From: Crocinitomicaceae bacterium
GTDB lineage: Bacteria; Bacteroidota; Bacteroidia; Flavobacteriales_D; Crocinitomicaceae
Length of the DNA stretch: 43,969 nucleotides
Reading direction: 5' to 3'
Assembly (NCBI GenBank): GCA_023268965.1
Contig: JALRJE010000032.1
Span: 1 to 43,969 of the forward strand
Below are positions 21,786-32,459 of the stretch, piece after piece (position 1 is the stretch's first letter; each line of letters begins with the position of its first letter). The translations under genes and the position numbers were made by a program. Under the pieces are notes generated by a model. That model ran no database searches and was not told where the DNA came from. It was given only the letters and a program-made list of their open reading frames with translations.

Positions 21786-22172
21786 ATGAAAACAATAACT
21801 ATGCTTGCGCTCGTTTTGATGAGCCTAATTTCTTGTTCAACCTCAGCACAATCAGGCTTTAAAAATGCGCCTGTAGCTGAGCTAACCAAAATTAAAAATG
21901 AAAAAATGGCGCTAGTTATCGATGTGCGCACACCGGCCGAATGGCAACAAGGAGTCATTGATGGAGCCGATATTTTTATAGATTACAACGGCGTAAATTT
22001 TAAACAGGAGCTGGCCAAATTGGATAAGTCCAAAACATATGTGGTATATTGCCGCAGTGGCGGCCGTAGTGCCGGGGCAAGCCAAGTGATGGTCGATAAC
22101 GGTTTTAAGCATGTTATTAATATGCAAGGTGGCATCATGTCTTGGACCGGAAAACTTGTGAAGAAACCATAA
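21786..22172 (+). CDS. periplasmic single-domain rhodanese (probable lipoprotein)
   Basis: 128 aa. The N-terminus MKTITMLALVLMSLISCSTSAQ reads as a lipoprotein signal with Cys17. The rhodanese domain has VIDVRTPAEWQQGVIDGA and the active-site loop CRSGGRS, where the Cys carries sulfane sulfur as a persulfide, followed by GGIMSW. It would bind or transfer sulfane sulfur on the periplasmic side. It is the first gene of operon 1, directly below the CRP/FNR-type operator, and ends 17 bp before the YeiH-type transporter gene. Confidence 0.9.
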   Translation: MKTITMLALVLMSLISCSTSAQSGFKNAPVAELTKIKNEKMALVIDVRTPAEWQQGVIDGADIFIDYNGVNFKQELAKLDKSKTYVVYCRSGGRSAGASQVMVDNGFKHVINMQGGIMSWTGKLVKKP

Positions 22173-22189
22173 TTGTAGTTTCTAAACGG

Positions 22190-23143
22190 ATGAAAATTCA
22201 ATTACCAGGAATACTTTTGGCTGCGGTTTTAGGATTTGCAGCCATTTTTTTGTCAGCCTATACGCCTTCCTTTCTCAATTCCTATTTGCTCGCCCTCTTG
22301 GTAGGTATACTGCTCGCCCCGCAGGTGAATAAACTTCCTCAACTAGACGCCGGAATTTCTTTAAGCTCGGCAAAAATGTTAGAGTGGTCGGTGGTGCTAC
22401 TTGCTTTTAGTATGGATTACAAAGCGATTGGCGCGATTGGCGCTGCAGATTTTGTGGTCATCATTATCGTGGTGTTACTTGTCTTGTTAGCGACCTATTA
22501 CCTGTCTAAAGTCTTGTCTTGCCCTGGTAAAACAGGTTGGTTGGTTGGTTTTGGGACGGCCATTTGCGGATCATCCGCTATTGCAGCCCTTGCTCCTAAG
22601 ATTAAATCAGAGAAAGAAGACGTTGCCATTTCTTTGGCAGCAGTCAACCTTTTGGGTTCGGTGGGTATGATTTTATTACCATTGTTATTTCAGTTTTTTC
22701 CGCTCGCAGAAAAGCAAATGGCCTTTTTGATTGGCGCTTCTTTGCACGCCGTTGGTAATGTGGCGGGAGCAGGTTTTTCTGTTTCAGAAGAGGTTGGGCA
22801 ATTGGCACTTGTTTACAAGATGGCGCGTGTAGCGTTGTTGTCTCCGGCATTGTTGTTTATGGTGTGGCTCAATGCACGCAAAACAGAGGGTCAAACTTTT
22901 CAATTTCAATTGCCTTGGTATTTAATCGCTTTTCTTTTGATTTCCATTATGGTGAGCTTATTTCCGTTGCCAGAAGCGCTCATCAATACCAGTGAATTCA
23001 TAGGCAAAATCATGCTCACCATAGCCATGGCTGCAATTGGCTTAAAAGTACACGTTTTGCGTTTGTTAAAGGCTGGGCAAAGGGGCTTGGTCTTTGCGCT
23101 GCTTGTATTTGTATTGCAAATGAGCCTTTTATGGTTTTTATGA
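22190..23143 (+). CDS. YeiH-family putative sulfate exporter
   Basis: 317 aa from the ATG at 22190 (MKIQLPGILLAAVLG); the frame extends further upstream only into the rhodanese gene. About ten hydrophobic segments. Family blocks: GFGTAICGSSAIAALAPKI, a re-entrant-like GASLHAVGNVAGAGFSVSEEVG, then ALVYKMARVALLSPALL. Members are called putative sulfate exporters and their transport is poorly proven. Co-transcription with a rhodanese, and the shared operator with the persulfide dioxygenase operon, make a sulfur oxyanion substrate likely. Confidence 0.87.
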   Translation: MKIQLPGILLAAVLGFAAIFLSAYTPSFLNSYLLALLVGILLAPQVNKLPQLDAGISLSSAKMLEWSVVLLAFSMDYKAIGAIGAADFVVIIIVVLLVLLATYYLSKVLSCPGKTGWLVGFGTAICGSSAIAALAPKIKSEKEDVAISLAAVNLLGSVGMILLPLLFQFFPLAEKQMAFLIGASLHAVGNVAGAGFSVSEEVGQLALVYKMARVALLSPALLFMVWLNARKTEGQTFQFQLPWYLIAFLLISIMVSLFPLPEALINTSEFIGKIMLTIAMAAIGLKVHVLRLLKAGQRGLVFALLVFVLQMSLLWFL

Positions 23144-23312: not shown

Positions 23313-24728
23313 ATGAAAATAGAACAAATTTACACCGGTTGTTTAGCGCAAGGCGCTTATTATGTAGTGAGTAACAACGAAGCATTTATTATTGACCCAC
23401 TAAGAGAGATTCAGCCATACCTAGACCGTATTGCAGCTGATGGCGTCAAGCTCAAGTATATTTTTGAAACGCATTTTCATGCTGATTTCGTTTCTGGCCA
23501 TCTCGACTTAAGCAAGCAAACAGGTGCACCAATTGTCTACGGACCAACTGCAAAGACCGAATTTGAGGCCATCATTGCCGAAGACGGTCAAGTATTTGAA
23601 ATAGGAGCTGTCAAAATTAAAGTATTGCACACGCCTGGGCACACAATGGAGAGTACAACGTTTTTATTGATCAACGAAGAAGGCAAAGACGAAGCTATTT
23701 TCTCTGGAGATACACTCTTTTTAGGTGATGTAGGCCGCCCTGACCTCGCGCAAAAAGCTGCCGACATGACCCAAGAACAATTGGCAGGTATGCTATATGA
23801 GTCTTTGATGACTAAAATTATGCCATTGGCCGACGACTTGACCGTTTATCCAGCGCATGGTGCGGGTTCTGCTTGCGGTAAAAATATGATGAAAGAAACC
23901 GTGGATACACTCGGCAATCAAAAGAAGATGAATTATGCGCTCAATCAGCCAAACAAAGAGGCGTTCATTGCAGCCGTAACAGACGGTTTATTGCCTCCTC
24001 CAGCTTATTTTGGCCATAATGTAGCCATGAATAAAAAAGGATACGACAGTTTTGAGGCTGTAAAAGAAAAGGCGATGACGCCACTTAGCCCAGCTGCTTT
24101 TGAAACACTTGTCGAGGCTACCGGCGCATTGATTTTAGATACGCGTCCAGCTGCTGATTTTTACCATGGGTTTATTCCACAAGCTGTCAATATTGGCATT
24201 CGCGGTGACTTTGCTCCATGGGTTGGAGCCCTAATTGGCGATGTAAAACAAGAAATTGTATTAATTACAGACGCAGGAATGGAAGAAGAAGTCATTACCC
24301 GCCTTAGCCGCGTTGGCTTCGATAAAGTACTGGGGTACCTACAAGGTGGCTTTGCTGCTTGGCAAGATGCTGGCAAAGAGGTTGATCAAGTGAAGCGCAT
24401 TACAGCCGATGAATTTGCAACACAATTTAAAGCTGGCGAATCTATGGTCATTGACGTTCGCAAAGAAAGCGAGTACGAGGCAGAACATGTCGAAGATGCT
24501 TACAGTAAACCGCTTGCTTATATCAACGACTGGACTAAAGATATTGACCCAAGCCAGCACTTTTTTATGCATTGTGCAGGTGGTTACCGCAGCATGATAG
24601 CCGCTTCTATTTTACAAGCGCGTGGCTACCGCAACTTTACTGAAGTAGACGGTGGTTTTGGAGCGATCTCAAAAACAGAAGTTCCAAGAACTGATTTCGT
24701 TTGTCAGAGTAAAGTAATGAAGCAGTAA
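23313..24728 (+). CDS. persulfide dioxygenase-rhodanese fusion (MBL fold, CstB/Blh-like)
   Basis: 471 aa, cytosolic. The MBL domain (1-240) has H54-F-H56-A-D58 with H63 (THFHADFVSGH), H110 (HTPGH) and D133 (SGDTLFLGDVGRPDL), the mononuclear Fe site pattern of persulfide dioxygenases. Two rhodanese domains follow. The first (about 260-355) has TDAGME where the Cys loop should be, so it is a pseudo-rhodanese. The second (about 370-465) has H-C421-AGGYRS and looks active. The enzyme would oxidise low-molecular-weight persulfides to sulfite or, using the rhodanese, thiosulfate. It heads a seven-gene operon with the split YeeE/YedE pair next. Confidence 0.93.
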   Translation: MKIEQIYTGCLAQGAYYVVSNNEAFIIDPLREIQPYLDRIAADGVKLKYIFETHFHADFVSGHLDLSKQTGAPIVYGPTAKTEFEAIIAEDGQVFEIGAVKIKVLHTPGHTMESTTFLLINEEGKDEAIFSGDTLFLGDVGRPDLAQKAADMTQEQLAGMLYESLMTKIMPLADDLTVYPAHGAGSACGKNMMKETVDTLGNQKKMNYALNQPNKEAFIAAVTDGLLPPPAYFGHNVAMNKKGYDSFEAVKEKAMTPLSPAAFETLVEATGALILDTRPAADFYHGFIPQAVNIGIRGDFAPWVGALIGDVKQEIVLITDAGMEEEVITRLSRVGFDKVLGYLQGGFAAWQDAGKEVDQVKRITADEFATQFKAGESMVIDVRKESEYEAEHVEDAYSKPLAYINDWTKDIDPSQHFFMHCAGGYRSMIAASILQARGYRNFTEVDGGFGAISKTEVPRTDFVCQSKVMKQ

Positions 24729-24770: not shown

Positions 24771-25328
24771 ATGCTTGATTTTTTAATGCAACCTTGGCCG
24801 TGGTGGTTCTCCGGAATGATCATTTCAGCCGTTATGTTCTCTATGCTCTTTTTTGGGAAGAGCTTCGGATTCTCTTCGAATTTGCGTACGATTTGCACAA
24901 TTGTTGGTGCCGGAAAGCGCGTTAAATTCTTTGATTTTGACTGGAAAACCCAATCTTGGAATCTCGTATTTTTAGTCGGAGCTATCATTGGTGGCTATAT
25001 TGCTAACAACTACCTGAATGATGGTGCTGCTTTTCGGATTGCTGACAGCACAGCAAAAGATTTGGCGGCACTCGGTTTTGCGCAAGCTCAAGAGATCCAA
25101 CCACTCGAATTATTTAGTTGGGAGGCCATTTTTACCCTTAAAGGATTTGCCATTCTTTCCATTGGCGGAATACTTGTTGGTTTTGGTTCTCGTTATGCAG
25201 GTGGTTGTACCTCAGGGCACGCTATCTCTGGGATTTCTAATTTGCAAATTCCTTCAATTGTTGCCGTTGTGGGCTTTTTTATTGGTGGCCTACTGATGAC
25301 TCATTTTATTTTCCCATTCATTTTTTAA
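24771..25328 (+). CDS. YeeE/YedE-family sulfur transport protein, first half-protein (PmpA-like)
   Basis: 185 aa with about four to five hydrophobic segments. The signature [19 protein letters not shown] (about 140-158) carries the conserved Cys used to relay thiosulfate or sulfane sulfur in YeeE. Full-length YeeE/TsuA is about twice this size; here the halves are separate genes, the next one starting 3 bp downstream. In other bacteria such pairs accompany persulfide dioxygenase genes (the Blh/PmpAB layout). It likely imports thiosulfate or another sulfane-sulfur compound through the inner membrane. Confidence 0.88.
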
Positions 25329-25331
25329 GCC

Positions 25332-25745
25332 ATGAAATTTATTAAGTTTTTAATCGTAGGGATTTTATTTGGTATTGTAATGGCCAAATCCCAAGCCTTA
25401 AGTTGGTACCGCATTCAAGAAATGTTTCGTTTTCAGAGCTTTCATATGTATGGCATCATCGGAACTGCTGTTGTACTTGGTGTTATTGGCACTGCGCTTA
25501 TTAAGCGTTTCAAAATAAATGACGTACAAGGTGAGCCAATCAATTTTGTTCCAAAAGACAAAACGTTTTGGCGCTATTTAATTGGTGGGAGCATTTTTGG
25601 ATTGGGTTGGGCTTTAAGCGGAGCTTGCCCTGGGCCAATGGTTGTCAATATTGGTTATGGTTTTCTCAGTTTTATAGTCGTTGTATTTTTTGCGGTCTTG
25701 GGTACGTATTTATACGGCGTATTGGAAAGCAAATTGCCACATTGA
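25332..25745 (+). CDS. YeeE/YedE-family sulfur transport protein, second half-protein (PmpB/DUF6691-like)
   Basis: 137 aa with four hydrophobic segments. FGLGWALSGACPGPMVVNIG (about 87-106) holds the second conserved Cys motif, SGACPGP. The spacing to its partner is 3 bp and to the cytochrome gene 11 bp. Together the two half-proteins supply the paired GCTSGH and GACPGP motifs found in one chain of YeeE. The inferred substrate is thiosulfate or polysulfide. Confidence 0.87.
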   Translation: MKFIKFLIVGILFGIVMAKSQALSWYRIQEMFRFQSFHMYGIIGTAVVLGVIGTALIKRFKINDVQGEPINFVPKDKTFWRYLIGGSIFGLGWALSGACPGPMVVNIGYGFLSFIVVVFFAVLGTYLYGVLESKLPH

Positions 25746-25756
25746 TTGCGCAGCAT

Positions 25757-26719
25757 ATGAAATCATTATTTTTTATCGCAGCTTTAGGCATACTTGCTTT
25801 TTCTTGCAGTGTTTCCGATGAAAATATGCTGATCAGTCAAAACTCAGAAGAAATCAAAACAAAGCTTACCAGTGAATTTTGGCAACCTAAAGATGTTTTT
25901 GCTATAGCAGCTCTTAAAAAAGCCAAAGAGGTTCAGTATGGCAGAGACCTCATTATTCATACGGCCTATTACTTGGGGCCCAGAGGTAGAATTGCACAGC
26001 AAACAAACGGACTCAATTGTCAAAATTGCCACTTAGATGCAGGCACTAAGCCTTTTGGAAATAATTACGGATCTGTTGCCTCAACTTACCCGAAGGTAAG
26101 AGCGCGCAGCGGCAAGATGGAAAGCATCGAAAAACGCATCAATGATTGTTTTGAACGGAGTTTGAATGGCAAACCACTTCGGGAGAATAGCAAGGAAATG
26201 CAAGCTATGGTTGCTTACATGCAATTTTTGGGTGAAAACGTACCCAAAGGAGAAAAAGCAGCCGGATCAGGTCTCAAAGCCTTACCTTTTTTAAATAGGG
26301 CTGCAGATCCAACAAAAGGAAAAGCAGTATATGACTTGCGCTGTGCAAGTTGCCATCAGTCTAACGGTCGAGGAATCATCGATGGAATTGGCCAGTCTTA
26401 CGTATATCCTCCGCTTTGGGGCCCCCATAGTTTCAATGATGCGGCGGGCCTTAGCAGAATTAGCAATATGGCAAAGTATGTCAAGTACAACATGCCACTC
26501 GGTGTAAATCATGACGATCCTGAGTTGTCTGATGAAGATGCTTGGGATGTTGCAGCCTACATCGAAAGTAAGCCACGTCCACACAAGCCTACACCTAAGG
26601 ATTGGCCCGATATTTCTAAAAAACCAATAGACCATCCATTTGGTCCTTACGCCGATCAATTCTCTGAAATGCAGCACAAATACGGCCCGTTTACTGCCAT
26701 GAAAAAGGCTAAAAAGTAG
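25757..26719 (+). CDS. TsdA-like dihaem cytochrome c (thiosulfate dehydrogenase family), lipoprotein
   Basis: 320 aa from the ATG at 25757 (MKSLFFIAALGILAFSC), a lipoprotein signal with Cys17; the longer open frame overlaps the YedE gene and is rejected. Haem 1 motif is C88-QN-C91-H92 followed by LDAGTKPF. C131 in RINDCFERSLNGK sits where TsdA uses Cys as the distal haem ligand. Haem 2 motif is C196-AS-C199-H200, with M246 (YNMPLG) as probable distal ligand. YPPLWG, SFNDAAG and WDVAAYIESKPRP are family blocks. TsdA oxidises thiosulfate to tetrathionate, or the reverse, in the periplasm. Reaction direction and electron acceptor are unknown. Confidence 0.86.
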   Translation: MKSLFFIAALGILAFSCSVSDENMLISQNSEEIKTKLTSEFWQPKDVFAIAALKKAKEVQYGRDLIIHTAYYLGPRGRIAQQTNGLNCQNCHLDAGTKPFGNNYGSVASTYPKVRARSGKMESIEKRINDCFERSLNGKPLRENSKEMQAMVAYMQFLGENVPKGEKAAGSGLKALPFLNRAADPTKGKAVYDLRCASCHQSNGRGIIDGIGQSYVYPPLWGPHSFNDAAGLSRISNMAKYVKYNMPLGVNHDDPELSDEDAWDVAAYIESKPRPHKPTPKDWPDISKKPIDHPFGPYADQFSEMQHKYGPFTAMKKAKK

Positions 26720-26720
26720 T

Positions 26721-28160
26721 ATGAAATTTAAAGTTAATCCCTTCTTATTCTATTTCGCGATACTTTTGTTTTATACATCGGTTCCAATGTGGGCTCAACA
26801 CCATGAGCTTTCTGATCAGCCCGTGATGTGGAAAGGAAAGCCGCAAGATGTCTTGGATTCTACCTCTTTGTTGTACGCTTTTAAAACCGGAACCACTGCA
26901 GGCCATTTTCGCTATTTCTTCAGTCAGACAACCAATGAAGGAGCACTTTCAGATTACTTTGCCAATGCAGTCGGTGGTGGTCTGCGTTTTGAGACCAATT
27001 CTTTTCATCACTTTCAATTTGCGGTAAGTGGCTTTTACTTTTTTAACATTGGCTCTTCTCAATTACATAATCCAGATCCAATAACTGGTTCTTTAAGCAG
27101 GTATGAAATTGGGCTGTTTGATGTAGAAAATCCGGACAACCATGAGGATATGGATCGCTTGGAAGAATTGTACCTGAAGTATAATTTGAAAAAAGGCCAC
27201 CTCATTTTAGGTAAACAGCTGATCAATACACCGCTGATCAGTATTCAAGATGGTCGCATGCGAGGAACAGGTGTGGAAGGCGTTTGGCTCGACCAAAAAT
27301 TGGGCAAAAAATGGCGTTTTCAGGGTGGTCTGCTCACTTCTATTTCTCCGAGAAGCACCACTAAATGGTACAATGGAGCAGCATCTATTGGTCTGTATAG
27401 TCAAGGTGTGAATCCAGATGGTACGCCTTCCAATTTTAAAGGGAATATTGAAATGCCCTATGTAGCAGTCGCTTCCTTTACTTGGAAACCTCTAGAAAAT
27501 CTTGAATATCAAGCTTGGGATTACCATTTACCGGGCTTGTTAAATAGTACTTTTCATCAGGCAGTGCACCATGCGCATTTCAAGCGCATAAAATGGCAAA
27601 ATGGAGCACAATTCATAAGGCAGTGGGCACTTGCCGATGGCGGTAATGCAGATCAGTCAATGACCTACATTGCTAGAGGTGCAAAATCAATGACTTTTGG
27701 TTTGCGCTCTGAGCTTGAGTTTGTAAATTGGCATTATTCCCTGAATTATAACCACATTACGGCGGAAGGTCGCTTCTTGTTTCCGAGAGAATGGGGCAGA
27801 GACCCGTTTTTTACTTTTATGCCGCGCGAGCGCAATGAAGGGTTGGGCGACGTCCATGCTTTTGTTGCCAAAATTGAAAATCAAGATCCAAGCTCTATTT
27901 GGCGTAAATCAGGTTTTTCTTTTGGTTATTTTCAATTACCAGATGTCCAAAATTTTGCACTCAATAAATACGGAATGCCTAGTTACCTGCAAGCTAATCT
28001 AGACCTGCGTGTTCAATTAGAGAAACTCATGCATGGCTTAGAAGGGCAGTTGTTACTGGTGGCCAAATACGGTGTGGGCGTTACCTACAATAACCCAAAA
28101 TATCAAATTAATAAGGTCAATTTACTCTTGACCAACTTTGTATTGAACTATCACTTTTGA
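26721..28160 (+). CDS. OprD-like outer-membrane porin in the sulfur operon
   Basis: 479 aa. It has a signal peptide (MKFKVNPFLFYFAILLFYTSVPMWAQ) and a beta-barrel pattern of alternating aromatic strands ending in NYHF with a terminal Phe. OprD-type landmarks: LDSTSLLYAFKTGTTAGHFRYFF, FGLRSELEF-like strand, and FPREWGRDPFFTFMPRERNEG (about 353-373). It begins one base after the cytochrome stop, so it is firmly in the operon. It probably admits the sulfur substrate, or releases the product, across the outer membrane. The substrate is inferred from context only. Confidence 0.8.
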   Translation: MKFKVNPFLFYFAILLFYTSVPMWAQHHELSDQPVMWKGKPQDVLDSTSLLYAFKTGTTAGHFRYFFSQTTNEGALSDYFANAVGGGLRFETNSFHHFQFAVSGFYFFNIGSSQLHNPDPITGSLSRYEIGLFDVENPDNHEDMDRLEELYLKYNLKKGHLILGKQLINTPLISIQDGRMRGTGVEGVWLDQKLGKKWRFQGGLLTSISPRSTTKWYNGAASIGLYSQGVNPDGTPSNFKGNIEMPYVAVASFTWKPLENLEYQAWDYHLPGLLNSTFHQAVHHAHFKRIKWQNGAQFIRQWALADGGNADQSMTYIARGAKSMTFGLRSELEFVNWHYSLNYNHITAEGRFLFPREWGRDPFFTFMPRERNEGLGDVHAFVAKIENQDPSSIWRKSGFSFGYFQLPDVQNFALNKYGMPSYLQANLDLRVQLEKLMHGLEGQLLLVAKYGVGVTYNNPKYQINKVNLLLTNFVLNYHF

Positions 28161-28185: not shown

Positions 28186-29019
28186 ATGACTTTAGACTTA
28201 CTCACTATTTTTGGTTTATTGGCCAGCTCTGTAATTGGCATTTCTCTTGGTCTCATCGGTGGCGGGGGCTCTATTCTTACGGTTCCTGTTCTTGTTTACC
28301 TATTCAATGTCGACCCCGTTTTAGCAACGGCCTACTCCTTGTTTATTGTTGGTTTGAGTAGTTTGGTAGGGGCTTTTCCTAAATACAAAGCGGGCATGAT
28401 TGACCTCAAGACAGCACTTGTTTTTGGCGTCCCGTCGATTATTGCTGTGTTCTTGACAAGGAAAGTTTTGGTACCTGCTATTCCTGCAACGCTGTTTGAA
28501 GTGGCTGGAATTTCGGTGACTAAGGCGCTTGCCATGATGATTTTATTTGCAGTACTCATGGTTGCGGCCTCCGTTTCTATGATCAGAGACAAAAAGCAAG
28601 AAGAAGAAGATTCCAACGAGCCACGCGTATTTAATTACCCTATGATTTTATTGGAAGGCGCTGTGGTTGGTGTGCTAACAGGTTTGGTTGGTGCCGGCGG
28701 TGGCTTTTTGATCATACCAGCACTCGTCATGCTCAGTAAGCTGCCCATGAAGCAAGCAGTAGGTACGAGTTTATTGATTATTGCCGCTAAATCATTGATC
28801 GGATTTACCGGAGACGTCATGGAAAACGCCGATCAAATGGATTGGACACTATTGTCAGTAGTTACTGCACTTGCCATTATTGGTATTTTTATAGGTAACC
28901 AACTTTCAAAGAAACTAGATGGTGCGGCACTGAAGAAAGGCTTCGGTTGGTTTGTATTGGTAATGGGTATCTATATTATCATCAAAGAACTCGCTTTTCC
29001 TGGTGCAAGTGCACATTAA
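28186..29019 (+). CDS. TauE/SafE-family sulfite exporter
   Basis: 277 aa with about eight hydrophobic segments in two homologous halves. Each half starts with the glycine-rich TauE/SafE signature: [20 protein letters not shown] (about 22-41) and [20 protein letters not shown] (about 165-184). The middle contains a charged cytoplasmic loop ([12 protein letters not shown]). Members export sulfite, sulfoacetate and related anions. In this operon it would remove sulfite made by the persulfide dioxygenase. Transport direction is inferred. Confidence 0.9.
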
Positions 29020-29060: not shown

Positions 29061-30767
29061 ATGAAACCACAACAAAGAAGAAATTTCCTGAAGACGCTGG
29101 GTACAGCCGGCTTAGGAACGCTGCTCGCACCAAATTTATTGGCGCAGCATAACCATGAAGAAACATTAGGTGACCTAAACAATAAGTCATTAGCTCCGGT
29201 AAATAAAGACGGAAAAATTACGCTTCAGTTGTTACAAACTACCGATGTGCATTGTCAGATCTATCCACACGACGAACTCTTTTGGGAGAACGATAAAGCA
29301 GTGTTTAGAAAGACAGGTGGCTATGCTGAATTACAGACTTTCCTAAAGCAATTAAAGAAAACAAATCCGAATACTTTCTTGGTAGATACCGGCGATATGT
29401 TTCAGGGCTCTCAATTGAGTGTAGAAACTACCGGGCAAGCCTTTGTTCCGATATTAAATGCGATGGATTACCATTTGTACTTACCAGGTAATTGGGAGGT
29501 AATTTATGGGAAGCAAAAAATGCAGCAACTCATGGGCGCGCTGCGCGCGCCAAAAGTGTGTACCAATATGTACCATGACTTGGGCAATGGGCAAAAGGGA
29601 GAGCTCATCTTCCAGCCATATCATATTTGGGAGCATGAAGGTATCAAAATAGGATTCTTGGGTTACACCGATCCGTTGGTGCCACTGCGTCAGAGCCCTA
29701 ATTACAGCAGAGGAATTATCTACTCGAAGCCCGAAGAAAACTTGGCGCACTACGTCGATGTATTGCGCAACCAAGAGCAGTGTGCGGTGGTGATTATGCT
29801 TGCTCATTTGGGCTTGTCTCAGCAAATTGCTTTGGCCAATGATCCTTCTTGCGCAGGTGTAGATTATATTTTTGGAGGCGATACCCATGAGCGTGTGCGT
29901 AAACCCATTCAATGTGCTTATTCAAAAGTAGTGGAGCCAGGTGCTTTCGGCTCGTTTGTTGGGTCTTTAGAACTCGATTTTGATAATGGTAAACTTGCTG
30001 CAGAACGCTATGAACTTTTAGAAGTGAAAGCGCAATCACTCAAGCCAGATGCCGAAGTGCAAGCTGTCTTGAAAACCAATGAAGCTACTTTTGCCTCAGA
30101 AATCAATAGGGTGGTGGGTTATAGCACTCTTCCACTTTACCGCTATTTTGTAGTGGAGAATCCAATCGACACCATGATCCTGAATGCTTTAGATTGGCAA
30201 TTTCCAGAAATTGATATTGTGCTCTCGAATGGTTTTAGATTCTGCCCGCCGCGCACAACTCCAGACCACACCGGCAATATTCCGATTACAAAAGGCTTTA
30301 TTTTTGATATGCTGCCTGTAGATGCTACGGTTCGTACCGCCCAGGTAACAGGTCAGCAAATCGCTAATTGGTTGGAGAAAGAGCTCAATAACGTTTTTGC
30401 TAAAGATGCCTCCAAGCGCTTTGGTGGTTGGGTCATCAAATTCAAAGGTATGGAGGTTGAGTTTTTAGCATTTGCAGAACAAGGGAAACGCGTTCAAAAA
30501 GTGCTTGTAGGCGGTCAAGCGTTAGATAAAGACAAAGTCTATAGTATTTTGGCTTGTGAACGCGACGGAGACCCCCTAGATATGCTATGTCGTATCAAAG
30601 GTGTTCAGAATGCACAGAATACTGCCCATACCCTTCATAAAGTAATGGAAAGCTACCTAACTACCCACAAGGTGGTAACACCAACGCCACAAGGCAATGC
30701 AAAAGTGTTAGATGCGCCACAAAATTTACTGACACAAGTAACTGGCGTTCCTTACGAGTTCAAATAA
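29061..30767 (+). CDS. SoxB-like metallophosphatase/5'-nucleotidase-family protein, Tat-exported
   Basis: 568 aa. It has a twin-arginine signal, R6-R7-NFLK. The di-metal motifs are D62-V-H64 (TTDVH), DTGDMFQGS (109-117), GNWE (143-146), LAHLG, and GGDTHER. The classic 5'-nucleotidase GNHE is altered to GNWE; a Trp at this place is the SoxB hallmark (usually HWE). The C-terminal 5'-nucleotidase domain spans about 350-530 and has SNGFRF and the residues KRFGGWVIKFKGME. SoxB hydrolyses the sulfonate from a thiosulfonate carried on SoxY; no soxYZ is here, so the carrier or substrate must differ. It is the last gene of the operon. Confidence 0.8.
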   Translation: MKPQQRRNFLKTLGTAGLGTLLAPNLLAQHNHEETLGDLNNKSLAPVNKDGKITLQLLQTTDVHCQIYPHDELFWENDKAVFRKTGGYAELQTFLKQLKKTNPNTFLVDTGDMFQGSQLSVETTGQAFVPILNAMDYHLYLPGNWEVIYGKQKMQQLMGALRAPKVCTNMYHDLGNGQKGELIFQPYHIWEHEGIKIGFLGYTDPLVPLRQSPNYSRGIIYSKPEENLAHYVDVLRNQEQCAVVIMLAHLGLSQQIALANDPSCAGVDYIFGGDTHERVRKPIQCAYSKVVEPGAFGSFVGSLELDFDNGKLAAERYELLEVKAQSLKPDAEVQAVLKTNEATFASEINRVVGYSTLPLYRYFVVENPIDTMILNALDWQFPEIDIVLSNGFRFCPPRTTPDHTGNIPITKGFIFDMLPVDATVRTAQVTGQQIANWLEKELNNVFAKDASKRFGGWVIKFKGMEVEFLAFAEQGKRVQKVLVGGQALDKDKVYSILACERDGDPLDMLCRIKGVQNAQNTAHTLHKVMESYLTTHKVVTPTPQGNAKVLDAPQNLLTQVTGVPYEFK

Positions 30768-30848: not shown

Positions 30849-32459
30849 ATGAGTATTAAATCATTTTTCTTATTATTGCTTTTTTCATTCACTTTTCTTA
30901 TTGATACCCATGCCCAAACGAGCAACTTTCCTTTCGAAATTGCACTCAAAGCGGACTCGATTTCTGGCTTCAATGGTCTGCATTCTTTTGCATACGGGCA
31001 GCGGGATGGAAAATTAATCTTGATTGGCGGAAGGCCTGAAGGCATTCATGCCAGGCAACCTTTTAATGCTTTTCCTGCAAGCCAGAATAACCAGCTCTTA
31101 CAAGTACTAGATTTTCAAACCCATCAATACTGGAGCCGTTCTATTACTGAATTGGCGTTGTCTTTGCAAGAACAATTGCAAAGTACCAACATGAACTTTT
31201 ACCAAGATGGGAATTCCTTAATTCTGGCAGGCGGCTACGCATTCAGCGCTTCGGCCAATGACCATATTACCTTTCCCTATTTGACAAGAATTGACCTCGA
31301 TGGTTTAATCAACGCGCTGATCACCAATCAAGCGCTGGGCCCTTTCTTTGAACAAATTCAGGATGAGCGCTTTGCCGTTACTGGAGGGAATCTCGGAAAA
31401 ATTGGCAGTCAATACTATTTGGTAGGAGGGCACCGCTTTGACGGGCGCTACAATCCTATGAACAACCCTACATTTGTTCAGGCATACGTTGACGGCCTTA
31501 AAAAGTTTGAGTTAAGCGCACCGGGTCAAGGGTTAGCCGTGCTCAATTACCAATTCGCAACGGATCAAGTCAATTTGCATCGCAGAGACTACAATTTGGT
31601 ATCACATGTATATCCAAACGGTGAATTTGGTTACCTCATTTCATCGGGCGTATTTCAACTCAATGCAGATTTACCTTTTTTGTATCCAGTAGAAATTAAA
31701 AGCAGTGGGCATACTGCTGTGAATGGCTTTAGTCAGTACCTCAGTAATTATCACTCGAGTAAGTTTAGTGCTTATGATAGCGCCAGTGGCACCATGCACC
31801 ATTTATTTTTAGGTGGCTTGAGTCAATATTACTATCAAAATGGCTCACTGGTCAATGATCCGAATGTGCCGTTTGTGCGCACCATGAGCCGCTTGGCGCA
31901 GGGCCAAGATGGTGCTTACCAAGAATTTGTGCTCGGAACAGAAATGCCGGCCTTACTTGGCGCAAGTGCGGAGTTCATTCATTTAGAACAAGTGCCACAT
32001 TATGCCTCAGATATTATTGACCTAGCGGCTTTGATTGCCGATTCTATCCTAATTGGGCATGTAGTTGGCGGCATCAAAAGCCCGACAATTAACCCATTTA
32101 CAACCAATAATACCGGAGTTACTGATGCCAGCGCTGTTATTTATCAGGTTTGGTTGAAAAAAAGCACCACAGGGTCCATAGAAGTGCAAATTCCGGTACC
32201 AAATTTCCAAGTGAATTTATTTCCGAATCCATCGAAAGAGATGGCATTTCTGGCATTTGAACTCGATCAGAAAGCCAATGTGGAGTGTTTTATCCTAGAT
32301 GCTGGGGGGAGCTTGGTACATGAGGTCTACTATGAAAAAATCAAGCGTGCTAAAAAGACACTCGATCTAAAAGAACTTGCTTTAAAGCCAGGAACGTACA
32401 CCATTCAACTTATTTTCAACGATCAGCATGTCCTTACTAAACAACTGAGTGTACAATGA
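30849..32459 (+). CDS. secreted kelch-like beta-propeller with T9SS type A sorting domain
   Basis: 536 aa. Signal peptide MSIKSFFLLLLFSFTFLIDTHAQ. Repeats with GKLILIGGRPEG, NSLILAGGYAF, SQYYLVGGHRFDG and HHLFLGGLSQYYY fit kelch-type propeller blades (about 45-380). The last 80 residues begin VNLFPNPSKEMAFLAFE and end GTYTIQLIFNDQHVLTKQL, the type A C-terminal domain for T9SS export and surface anchoring. Function unknown. It lies 81 bp after the sulfur operon; a TATATTTA near 30821 may be its own promoter. Confidence 0.85.
   Translation: MSIKSFFLLLLFSFTFLIDTHAQTSNFPFEIALKADSISGFNGLHSFAYGQRDGKLILIGGRPEGIHARQPFNAFPASQNNQLLQVLDFQTHQYWSRSITELALSLQEQLQSTNMNFYQDGNSLILAGGYAFSASANDHITFPYLTRIDLDGLINALITNQALGPFFEQIQDERFAVTGGNLGKIGSQYYLVGGHRFDGRYNPMNNPTFVQAYVDGLKKFELSAPGQGLAVLNYQFATDQVNLHRRDYNLVSHVYPNGEFGYLISSGVFQLNADLPFLYPVEIKSSGHTAVNGFSQYLSNYHSSKFSAYDSASGTMHHLFLGGLSQYYYQNGSLVNDPNVPFVRTMSRLAQGQDGAYQEFVLGTEMPALLGASAEFIHLEQVPHYASDIIDLAALIADSILIGHVVGGIKSPTINPFTTNNTGVTDASAVIYQVWLKKSTTGSIEVQIPVPNFQVNLFPNPSKEMAFLAFELDQKANVECFILDAGGSLVHEVYYEKIKRAKKTLDLKELALKPGTYTIQLIFNDQHVLTKQLSVQ

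Follow-up and report, generated by a model that had tools for sequence, protein, structure and literature searches.

Organization of the sulfur gene cluster

The window, by which we mean the whole stretch of DNA analysed (43,969 nucleotides, contig JALRJE010000032.1 of a Crocinitomicaceae bacterium), carries on its forward strand a run of genes with similarity to genes of sulfur metabolism, among them a gene for a SoxB-like protein:

21786..22172, + strand: rhodanese, with which the run of sulfur genes begins; signal-like start (judged by eye)
22184..23143, + strand: YeiH-type putative sulfate exporter, found in 6 of 81 loci, the window included
23313..24728, + strand: MBL-fold protein of the persulfide-dioxygenase type (by family resemblance) with two rhodanese domains
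24771..25328, + strand: YeeE/YedE (Sulf_transp) half
25332..25745, + strand: second YeeE/YedE half (also DUF6691)
25757..26719, + strand: TsdA-like di-heme cytochrome c, thiosulfate dehydrogenase; start placed at the ATG of MKSLFF
26721..28160, + strand: OprD-like outer-membrane porin (weak match to Pfam, 25.4 bits with the cut-off at 25)
28186..29019, + strand: TauE/SafE-type exporter
29061..30767, + strand: SoxB-like di-metal hydrolase of 568 aa (P0001), GNWE/DTHER subfamily; open reading frame with an ATG start

The reverse strand at 29061-30767 contains many stops in the one frame that was translated. The original prediction had described the SoxB-like gene as the last one of a persulfide/thiosulfate operon. 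The operon part of this claim agrees with the gene order, since all the genes from the rhodanese to the TauE exporter precede it on the same strand. "Last" holds for the conserved sulfur genes, but not in the strict sense, because an open reading frame of 536 aa starts only 82 bases downstream. This reading frame (window positions 30849-32459, same strand) has matches in 11 of 81 loci including the window and is present in several same-genus relatives, and by eye its C-terminus looks like a type IX sorting signal. Scans of regulatory sequences returned promoter-like sites near the number expected by chance (22 versus 19.3) and terminator-like sites above it (21 versus 10.1), the latter mostly inside genes; operon boundaries were not drawn from these scans.

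A scan of genome contigs yielded 280 relatives of the SoxB-like gene, and the best 80 of these 280, which share 65-89% identity, were kept; by their titles, where recognised, they come from Bacteroidota groups, except for one MAG labelled Streptomyces griseus. When the 81 loci (the window plus these 80) were searched by tblastn, the TsdA-like cytochrome was found in 64, the YeeE halves in 56 and 53, the porin in 52, the rhodanese and the MBL-rhodanese protein in 44 each, TauE in 42 and YeiH in 6, counts that include the window, loci on short contigs and partial matches, with three Flavobacterium genomes contributing two loci each. Conversely, a TsdA match is missing from the fetched stretch in 17 of the 81 loci.

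The association with the cytochrome was also seen at the level of whole genomes. A cytochrome of the SoxA/TsdA family (PF21342, a profile that does not separate SoxA from TsdA) is encoded in 14 of 19 genomes with a family gene, against 25 of 357 other genomes without true SoxB (13 of 18 against 26 of 358 without the genome G251). Counted by genus, the figures are 9 of 12 against 12 of 156; in these Fisher tests relatedness is addressed by the genus count alone, in which the two genes may lie in different genomes of a genus. The cytochrome is missing from the whole genome in 5 of the 19 family genomes, and in G133, G168 and G251 it lies on another contig or about 80 kb away from the family gene.

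The TsdA-like protein of the window aligns with the thiosulfate dehydrogenase of PDB entry 4wqc over 201 residues (E 1.3e-48), the two CxxCH motifs and the Cys of DCFERSLNG being aligned. At the place where PDB 4wq7 (five entries) has Lys (KHKMPLG), the protein encoded at 25757-26719 has Asn (KYNMPLG); chain 4wqc has Asn at this place too, which may bear on the ligation of the second heme.

Motifs and predicted active site of the SoxB-like protein

The following elements were located within the gene:

29076..29093, + strand: twin-arginine motif RRNFLK, residues 6-11, Tat-type signal (motif search)
29244..29252, + strand: DVH, residues 62-64; D62 and H64 correspond to UshA D41 and H43, metal ligands by alignment
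29385..29396, + strand: DTGD, residues 109-112; D112 corresponds to UshA D84 by alignment
29487..29498, + strand: GNWE, residues 143-146; N144 is nucleotidase-like, and W145 replaces UshA His117 and is SoxB-like
29805..29807, + strand: H249, corresponding to UshA H217 by alignment, within LAHLG (residues 247-251)
29874..29894, + strand: GGDTHER, residues 272-278; D274 is aligned with UshA H252, a position that is His in both nucleotidases and SoxB

N144-W145-E146, the Tat signal and the DVH, DTGD and GGDTHER motifs were thus all found in the translation as the original prediction had described them; it listed GGDTHER as a metal motif and left the Asp inside it, D274, unremarked. Of 108 family rows, selected in this case by motif, 97 have RRxF[LIVMF] among their first 60 residues, and TatC is encoded in the genome from which the window comes.

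In the alignment to E. coli UshA, the residues D41, H43, D84 and H217 are retained and N116 corresponds to N144, while Q254 is replaced by H276 and H252 by D274. His117 and Asp120 of UshA, which we take to be its catalytic dyad, are replaced by W145 and I148, and the GNH[DE] dyad motif of the 5'-nucleotidases is absent. Phe429, which in UshA presumably stacks on the base, is replaced by V420; in the tree rows described below, all 15 family rows have Val at this place, whereas the 20 nucleotidase-like rows all have Phe, Tyr or His. The aligned places of UshA Arg375, Arg379, Arg410, Gly458, Phe498 and Asp504 were too uncertain and were left unused. On our assumption that N144 and D274 fall on ligands of one and the same metal site of UshA, three ligand sets can be distinguished: His/His in SoxB, Asn/His in the nucleotidases and Asn/Asp in the family studied here. 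As predicted from these alignments, the metal site of the GNWE/DTHER family would differ from those of its known relatives.

The same replacements bear on the possibility that the protein is a 5'-nucleotidase or a broad metallophosphatase. RefSeq names the relatives on plasmids of Runella and Pontibacter "bifunctional metallophosphatase/5'-nucleotidase", and the two-domain fold is indeed the one that UshA and CD73 have; Pfam finds both Metallophos (PF00149) and 5_nucleotid_C (PF02872) in the window protein; moreover, D62, H64, D112, N144 and H249 are as in UshA. However, the family has Trp and Ile/Val instead of the His-Asp dyad, no counterpart of Phe429 and Asp-274 instead of His, and its members lie outside the nucleotidase-like rows of the tree and in a sulfur gene neighbourhood. 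We therefore consider a nucleotidase function highly improbable, and the RefSeq name of the plasmid relatives is probably wrong.

Conservation of Asn-144, Trp-145 and Asp-274

Family rows were picked solely by their similarity to the window protein (at least 400 bits). Asn-144, Trp-145 and Asp-274 are present together in 107 of 107 such aligned rows, the window excluded, and the gene at each of the 80 loci and in the window is of this type, which we denote NW+D. Two members were fetched later, one of which reads N-W-D and the other, from G251, N-W-G; the assignment of G396 and G251 to the family came from their scores and was checked afterwards. The G251 member (L191, G251:C32) is 66% identical and has GGGTHER, with Gly at position 274, which indicates, at the level of sequence, that D274 can be lost. 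With the window included, Asn-144 and Trp-145 are found in 110 of 110 similarity-picked rows and D274 in 109 of 110. Trp in place of the catalytic His, as in SoxB, is accordingly found in the window protein and in 109 of 109 other rows.

The contrast that the original prediction drew between GNH[DE] in nucleotidases and HWE in SoxB holds as well: the 78 rows that scored below 400 bits read H-W-H in 37 cases, N-H-H in 37 and N-W-H in 4. Position 148, which corresponds to UshA Asp120, follows the same division among 172 distinct sequences: the 98 N-W-D rows have Ile or Val, the 33 H-W rows have Thr or Ala, and all but one of the 37 N-H rows have Asp.

Sampling 395 genomes from across the phylum added more distant members of the family, at 41-48% identity. 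Within the window's own genus the gene is present in 8 of 37 genomes, one fragment counted, so its distribution is patchy. Judging from these sequences, the GNWE/DTHER proteins are a widespread Bacteroidota subfamily; our searches of open-licence papers turned up no description of it, and we know of no biochemistry on it.

Separately from this family, GNWD proteins with His at position 274 are encoded at L146 2492-4276 and at L153, L143 and L144, in Haloarcula, in one genome of the Bacteroidota phylum and in two Bacillota; they have the Trp together with neither the second His ligand nor the Asp.

Relationship to SoxB and to the nucleotidases

The best NCBIfam match of the window protein is the SoxB model TIGR04486, at 253.3 bits versus a curated cut-off of 550; the true SoxB L101 reaches 858 bits. 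GNHD nucleotidase-like proteins of G251 and G187 obtain 267 bits (268.5 in a second scoring) and 278 bits, respectively, on the same model, above the 253 of the window protein, and because such neighbours score higher, the SoxB score was dropped as evidence. The best match by sequence in the PDB is Thermus SoxB (E 9e-30). An AlphaFold2 model of the window protein (mean pLDDT 85.6) has as its best structural match SoxB of Thermus thermophilus (2wdc; Z 38.1, rmsd 2.2 A over 482 residues, 26% identity), and the best nucleotidase, 3ive, follows with Z 35.3 and rmsd 3.1 A. In the disulfide-linked SoxB-SoxYZ complex 4uwq, a Cys is aligned with W145. If this Cys is an engineered Trp-to-Cys link, the alignment suggests that the Trp faces the reactive arm of the carrier.

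In a first tree of 50 rows, the branches of E. coli UshA and CpdB, Deinococcus and Haloarcula were long; we omitted these rows and added nucleotidase-like ones from the Bacteroidota phylum. The resulting maximum-likelihood tree has 53 rows: 20 nucleotidase-like, 6 true SoxB, 9 HW SoxB-like, 15 of the NW+D family and 3 NW+H. Group names refer to the motif letters, and "nucleotidase" here describes a sequence motif without implying a function. The nucleotidase-like, true SoxB, HW SoxB-like and NW+D rows each form one side of a branch with both supports at or above 98, and the three NW+H rows form no single group. Support for the NW+D clade is 100/99, and 100/100 when the columns of residues 143-148 and 272-278 are removed; the expectation of a separate subfamily is thereby borne out. 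The combination of Asn and Asp at the metal site occurs in no row outside this clade.

The position "between nucleotidases and true SoxB" that had been proposed for the protein did not hold. Trp-bearing sequences, that is, true SoxB, the other SoxB-like rows and the NW+D family, form one clade (100/98; 97/97 without the motif columns) on which a single change suffices to account for Trp-145, and 20 of 20 nucleotidase-like rows lie outside it; removal of columns 143-148 and 272-278 leaves the single-change result unaltered. The window protein is inside this clade with SoxB and the nucleotidases are outside, which places it on the sulfur side of the divide. Neither of the outcomes that would have spoken against the prediction was observed: the protein does not fall among the nucleotidase rows, and W145 is invariant in the close homologues.

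Within the Trp-bearing clade, true SoxB forms a clade of its own (100/100) that excludes the window protein, and the NW+D family groups with the HW SoxB-like and NW+H rows and not with true SoxB (96/88). Constraining the NW+D family and true SoxB to a single group costs 11.8 log units, a weak rejection (p-AU 0.043). If the tree is rooted among the nucleotidases, the sequences suggest that Trp-145 appeared while residue 144 was still Asn and that the second His ligand was gained later. So rooted, NH+H, NW+H, NW+D and HW+H would form a natural series in which to study the conversion of a phosphatase site into a sulfur-sulfur hydrolase.

That the protein might nevertheless be an ordinary SoxB and part of a Sox system deserves consideration, as SoxB provides its top matches in both NCBIfam and the PDB, and the two share the fold, the Trp that replaces the nucleotidase His and the sulfur gene neighbourhood. 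In contrast to SoxB, which has [GS]HWE and GHTHD, the family has GNWE and GGDTHER, so that N144 and D274 stand in the place of two His residues and the HWE and GHTH metal motifs are absent. In addition, no Sox carrier was found in the genome. SoxZ was found in 0 of 19 family genomes, that of the window included, against 45 of the 395 sampled genomes and 18 of 19 genomes with true SoxB, and SoxY in 0 of 20 family genomes, again including that of the window, in a search in which 3 of 3 positive controls answered. Given a score of 253 against 550 bits, a position outside the SoxB clade (weak as the rejection of the forced union is) and no SoxYZ found in the genome, we conclude that the window protein is not SoxB, and we regard the ordinary-SoxB explanation as the least probable of those discussed here.

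A DsrE-like candidate carrier

The failure to find SoxYZ raises the question of whether another protein could take its place. One candidate is a DsrE-like protein, in which case the hydrolase would act on a thiosulfonate bound to a protein carrier. A DsrE-like open reading frame with the same orientation is found no more than 700 bp away in 31 of the 81 loci and in 11 further ones. The gap is shorter than 20 bp in 23 of these 42 cases, and all 42 sequences share one invariant Cys; those read by eye have a signal-like start. Examples with a signal-like start and the single invariant Cys are found at L131 8483-8899, L182 6510-7067, L184 9103-9528 and L185 8740-9159, among others. The matches come from a profile search with seven seeds and E values up to 1e-4; Pfam support is weak for the four seeds that were checked, one of which is below the cut-off, and 1 of the 62 matches is annotated as DoxX.

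A deep subclade (L182-L185) is also relevant in this respect. Its motif is GNDTHER, no TsdA was found in the fetched stretches by tblastn, no twin-arginine motif is present, and DoxX and DsrE-like genes occupy the loci next to the family gene. By eye, several members of the GNDTHER subclade have lipoprotein-like starts.

On the other hand, no DsrE-like gene lies near the window gene, and none was found in the window genome, which is 95% complete, by a search with one member as query, which gave matches in 3 of 9 genomes, including the one that supplied the query. For the window protein we therefore view a carrier-bound substrate as rather unlikely. The broader version of this idea appears equally doubtful: here NW+D would be a third catalytic type with an Asn/Asp metal site, and a secreted single-Cys DsrE-like sulfur carrier, loaded by TsdA or by a DoxX protein, would replace SoxYZ in many Bacteroidota. 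The Gly at position 274 in G251 lowers its odds slightly. If true, it would mean that there is a carrier-based oxidation of thiosulfate independent of Sox, of which the window would be a carrier-less form.

A proposed role in tetrathionate hydrolysis

Most likely, the product of this gene releases sulfate from an oxidised sulfur compound, as part of a thiosulfate-oxidising gene cluster of many Bacteroidota. More specifically, we propose, with a probability of about 0.58, that it is a Tat-exported periplasmic di-metal hydrolase that removes sulfate from free tetrathionate made by TsdA; the substrate and the metals, like the reaction, the roles of the ligands and the directions of transport, are inferred. 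The pathway would start with TsdA, which would couple two thiosulfates to tetrathionate and pass the electrons to cytochrome c. The SoxB-like enzyme would then hydrolyse the terminal S-SO3 bond of free tetrathionate to give sulfate and a sulfane-sulfur product, using water activated by two metal ions bound to D62, H64, D112, N144, H249, D274 and H276, and W145, in place of the nucleotidase His-Asp dyad, would shape the pocket for the sulfane sulfur. Oxidation of this sulfane sulfur to sulfite may be the task of the persulfide-dioxygenase/rhodanese protein, with YeeE/YedE, TauE and YeiH as candidate transporters of sulfur species.

The presence of TsdA near the gene in 64 of the 81 loci makes tetrathionate the obvious supply, and a TsdA-type dehydrogenase, a SoxB homologue and, by family resemblance, a persulfide dioxygenase are all encoded in the window. 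This is the set of genes of the TsdA-SoxB-Sdo pathway of Erythrobacter flavus 21-3, in which TsdA, a SoxB homologue and a sulfur dioxygenase occur together without the Sox carrier cycle (cited part of PMC7608252). According to that part of the source, deletion of tsdA in this strain leaves thiosulfate constant, with neither tetrathionate nor sulfur, and deletion of soxB makes tetrathionate rise, with no sulfur detected in the medium and a little on plates, and the authors propose that SoxB acts there on tetrathionate and not on SoxYZ (PMC7608252). As the same part also reports tsdA and soxB homologues in Bacteroidetes, the idea of a tetrathionate pathway in Bacteroidota is not new (PMC7608252). 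The present analysis adds the NW+D subfamily, the features of its site and the distinction from SoxB. The two systems differ in the type of hydrolase, since the genes on alphaproteobacterial plasmids in our set (L134-L136, L142) are HW+H whereas the Bacteroidota gene is NW+D, and the E. flavus SoxB probably belongs to the HW group.

Several observations weigh against the tetrathionate proposal. The E. flavus evidence is genetic, and a little sulfur does form on plates in the soxB deletion (cited part of PMC7608252). TsdA is not always at hand, as described above for 17 of the 81 loci, 5 of the 19 genomes and the distant copies of G133, G168 and G251; L182-L185 adjoin DoxX and DsrE instead; and D274 is not absolute, given the Gly of G251. 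In addition, purified SoxB, although active on trithionate, leaves its carrier-bound substrates unconverted on its own (cited part of PMC5336275).

The tetrathionate hydrolases of the acidophiles (TetH/TTH) belong to a different protein family. What they have in common with the window protein is the proposed substrate (cited part of PMC10859504).

A sulfohydrolase acting on another thiosulfonate, such as S-sulfocysteine, glutathione S-sulfonate or trithionate, would be compatible with the fold and the Trp group, which suit any S-SO3 substrate, and with the 17 loci that have no TsdA match nearby. Trithionate is also a small-molecule substrate analogue for SoxB, as stated in the cited part of PMC5336275. 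A thiosulfonate substrate of the protein's own, as originally suggested, is plausible. However, TsdA lies near the gene in most loci, and no gene for making S-sulfocysteine was recognised in the window cluster, and we consider these other substrates possible but clearly less probable than free tetrathionate.

Plasmid-borne clusters and implications

Clusters of the thiosulfate type are located on plasmids in three Bacteroidota, namely L131 (Runella pRUNSL04), L132 (Pontibacter Paks1) and L133 (Hymenobacter NBH84), and may therefore move horizontally. As annotated, a Hymenobacter plasmid has a closely similar set of genes, in which an HW-type SoxB-like gene replaces the GNWE type, and alphaproteobacterial plasmids carry HW-type genes together with some of the YeeE, TauE, MBL and c-type cytochrome genes. 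The occurrence of the HW type in similar gene sets on plasmids suggests that the groups may substitute for each other.

If the tetrathionate proposal is true, many Bacteroidota genes, some of them named 5'-nucleotidase by RefSeq, belong to the oxidation of thiosulfate and tetrathionate, and surveys that count SoxB may consequently miss them. In a study of sediments, Proteobacteria accounted for 607 of the 608 SoxB-bearing genome bins, and its introduction mentions that Flavobacteria oxidise thiosulfate (cited parts of PMC12345210).

Finally, GNHD nucleotidase-like genes lie beside HW SoxB-like genes at L132 (- strand), at L169 and at L170 8129-9736.
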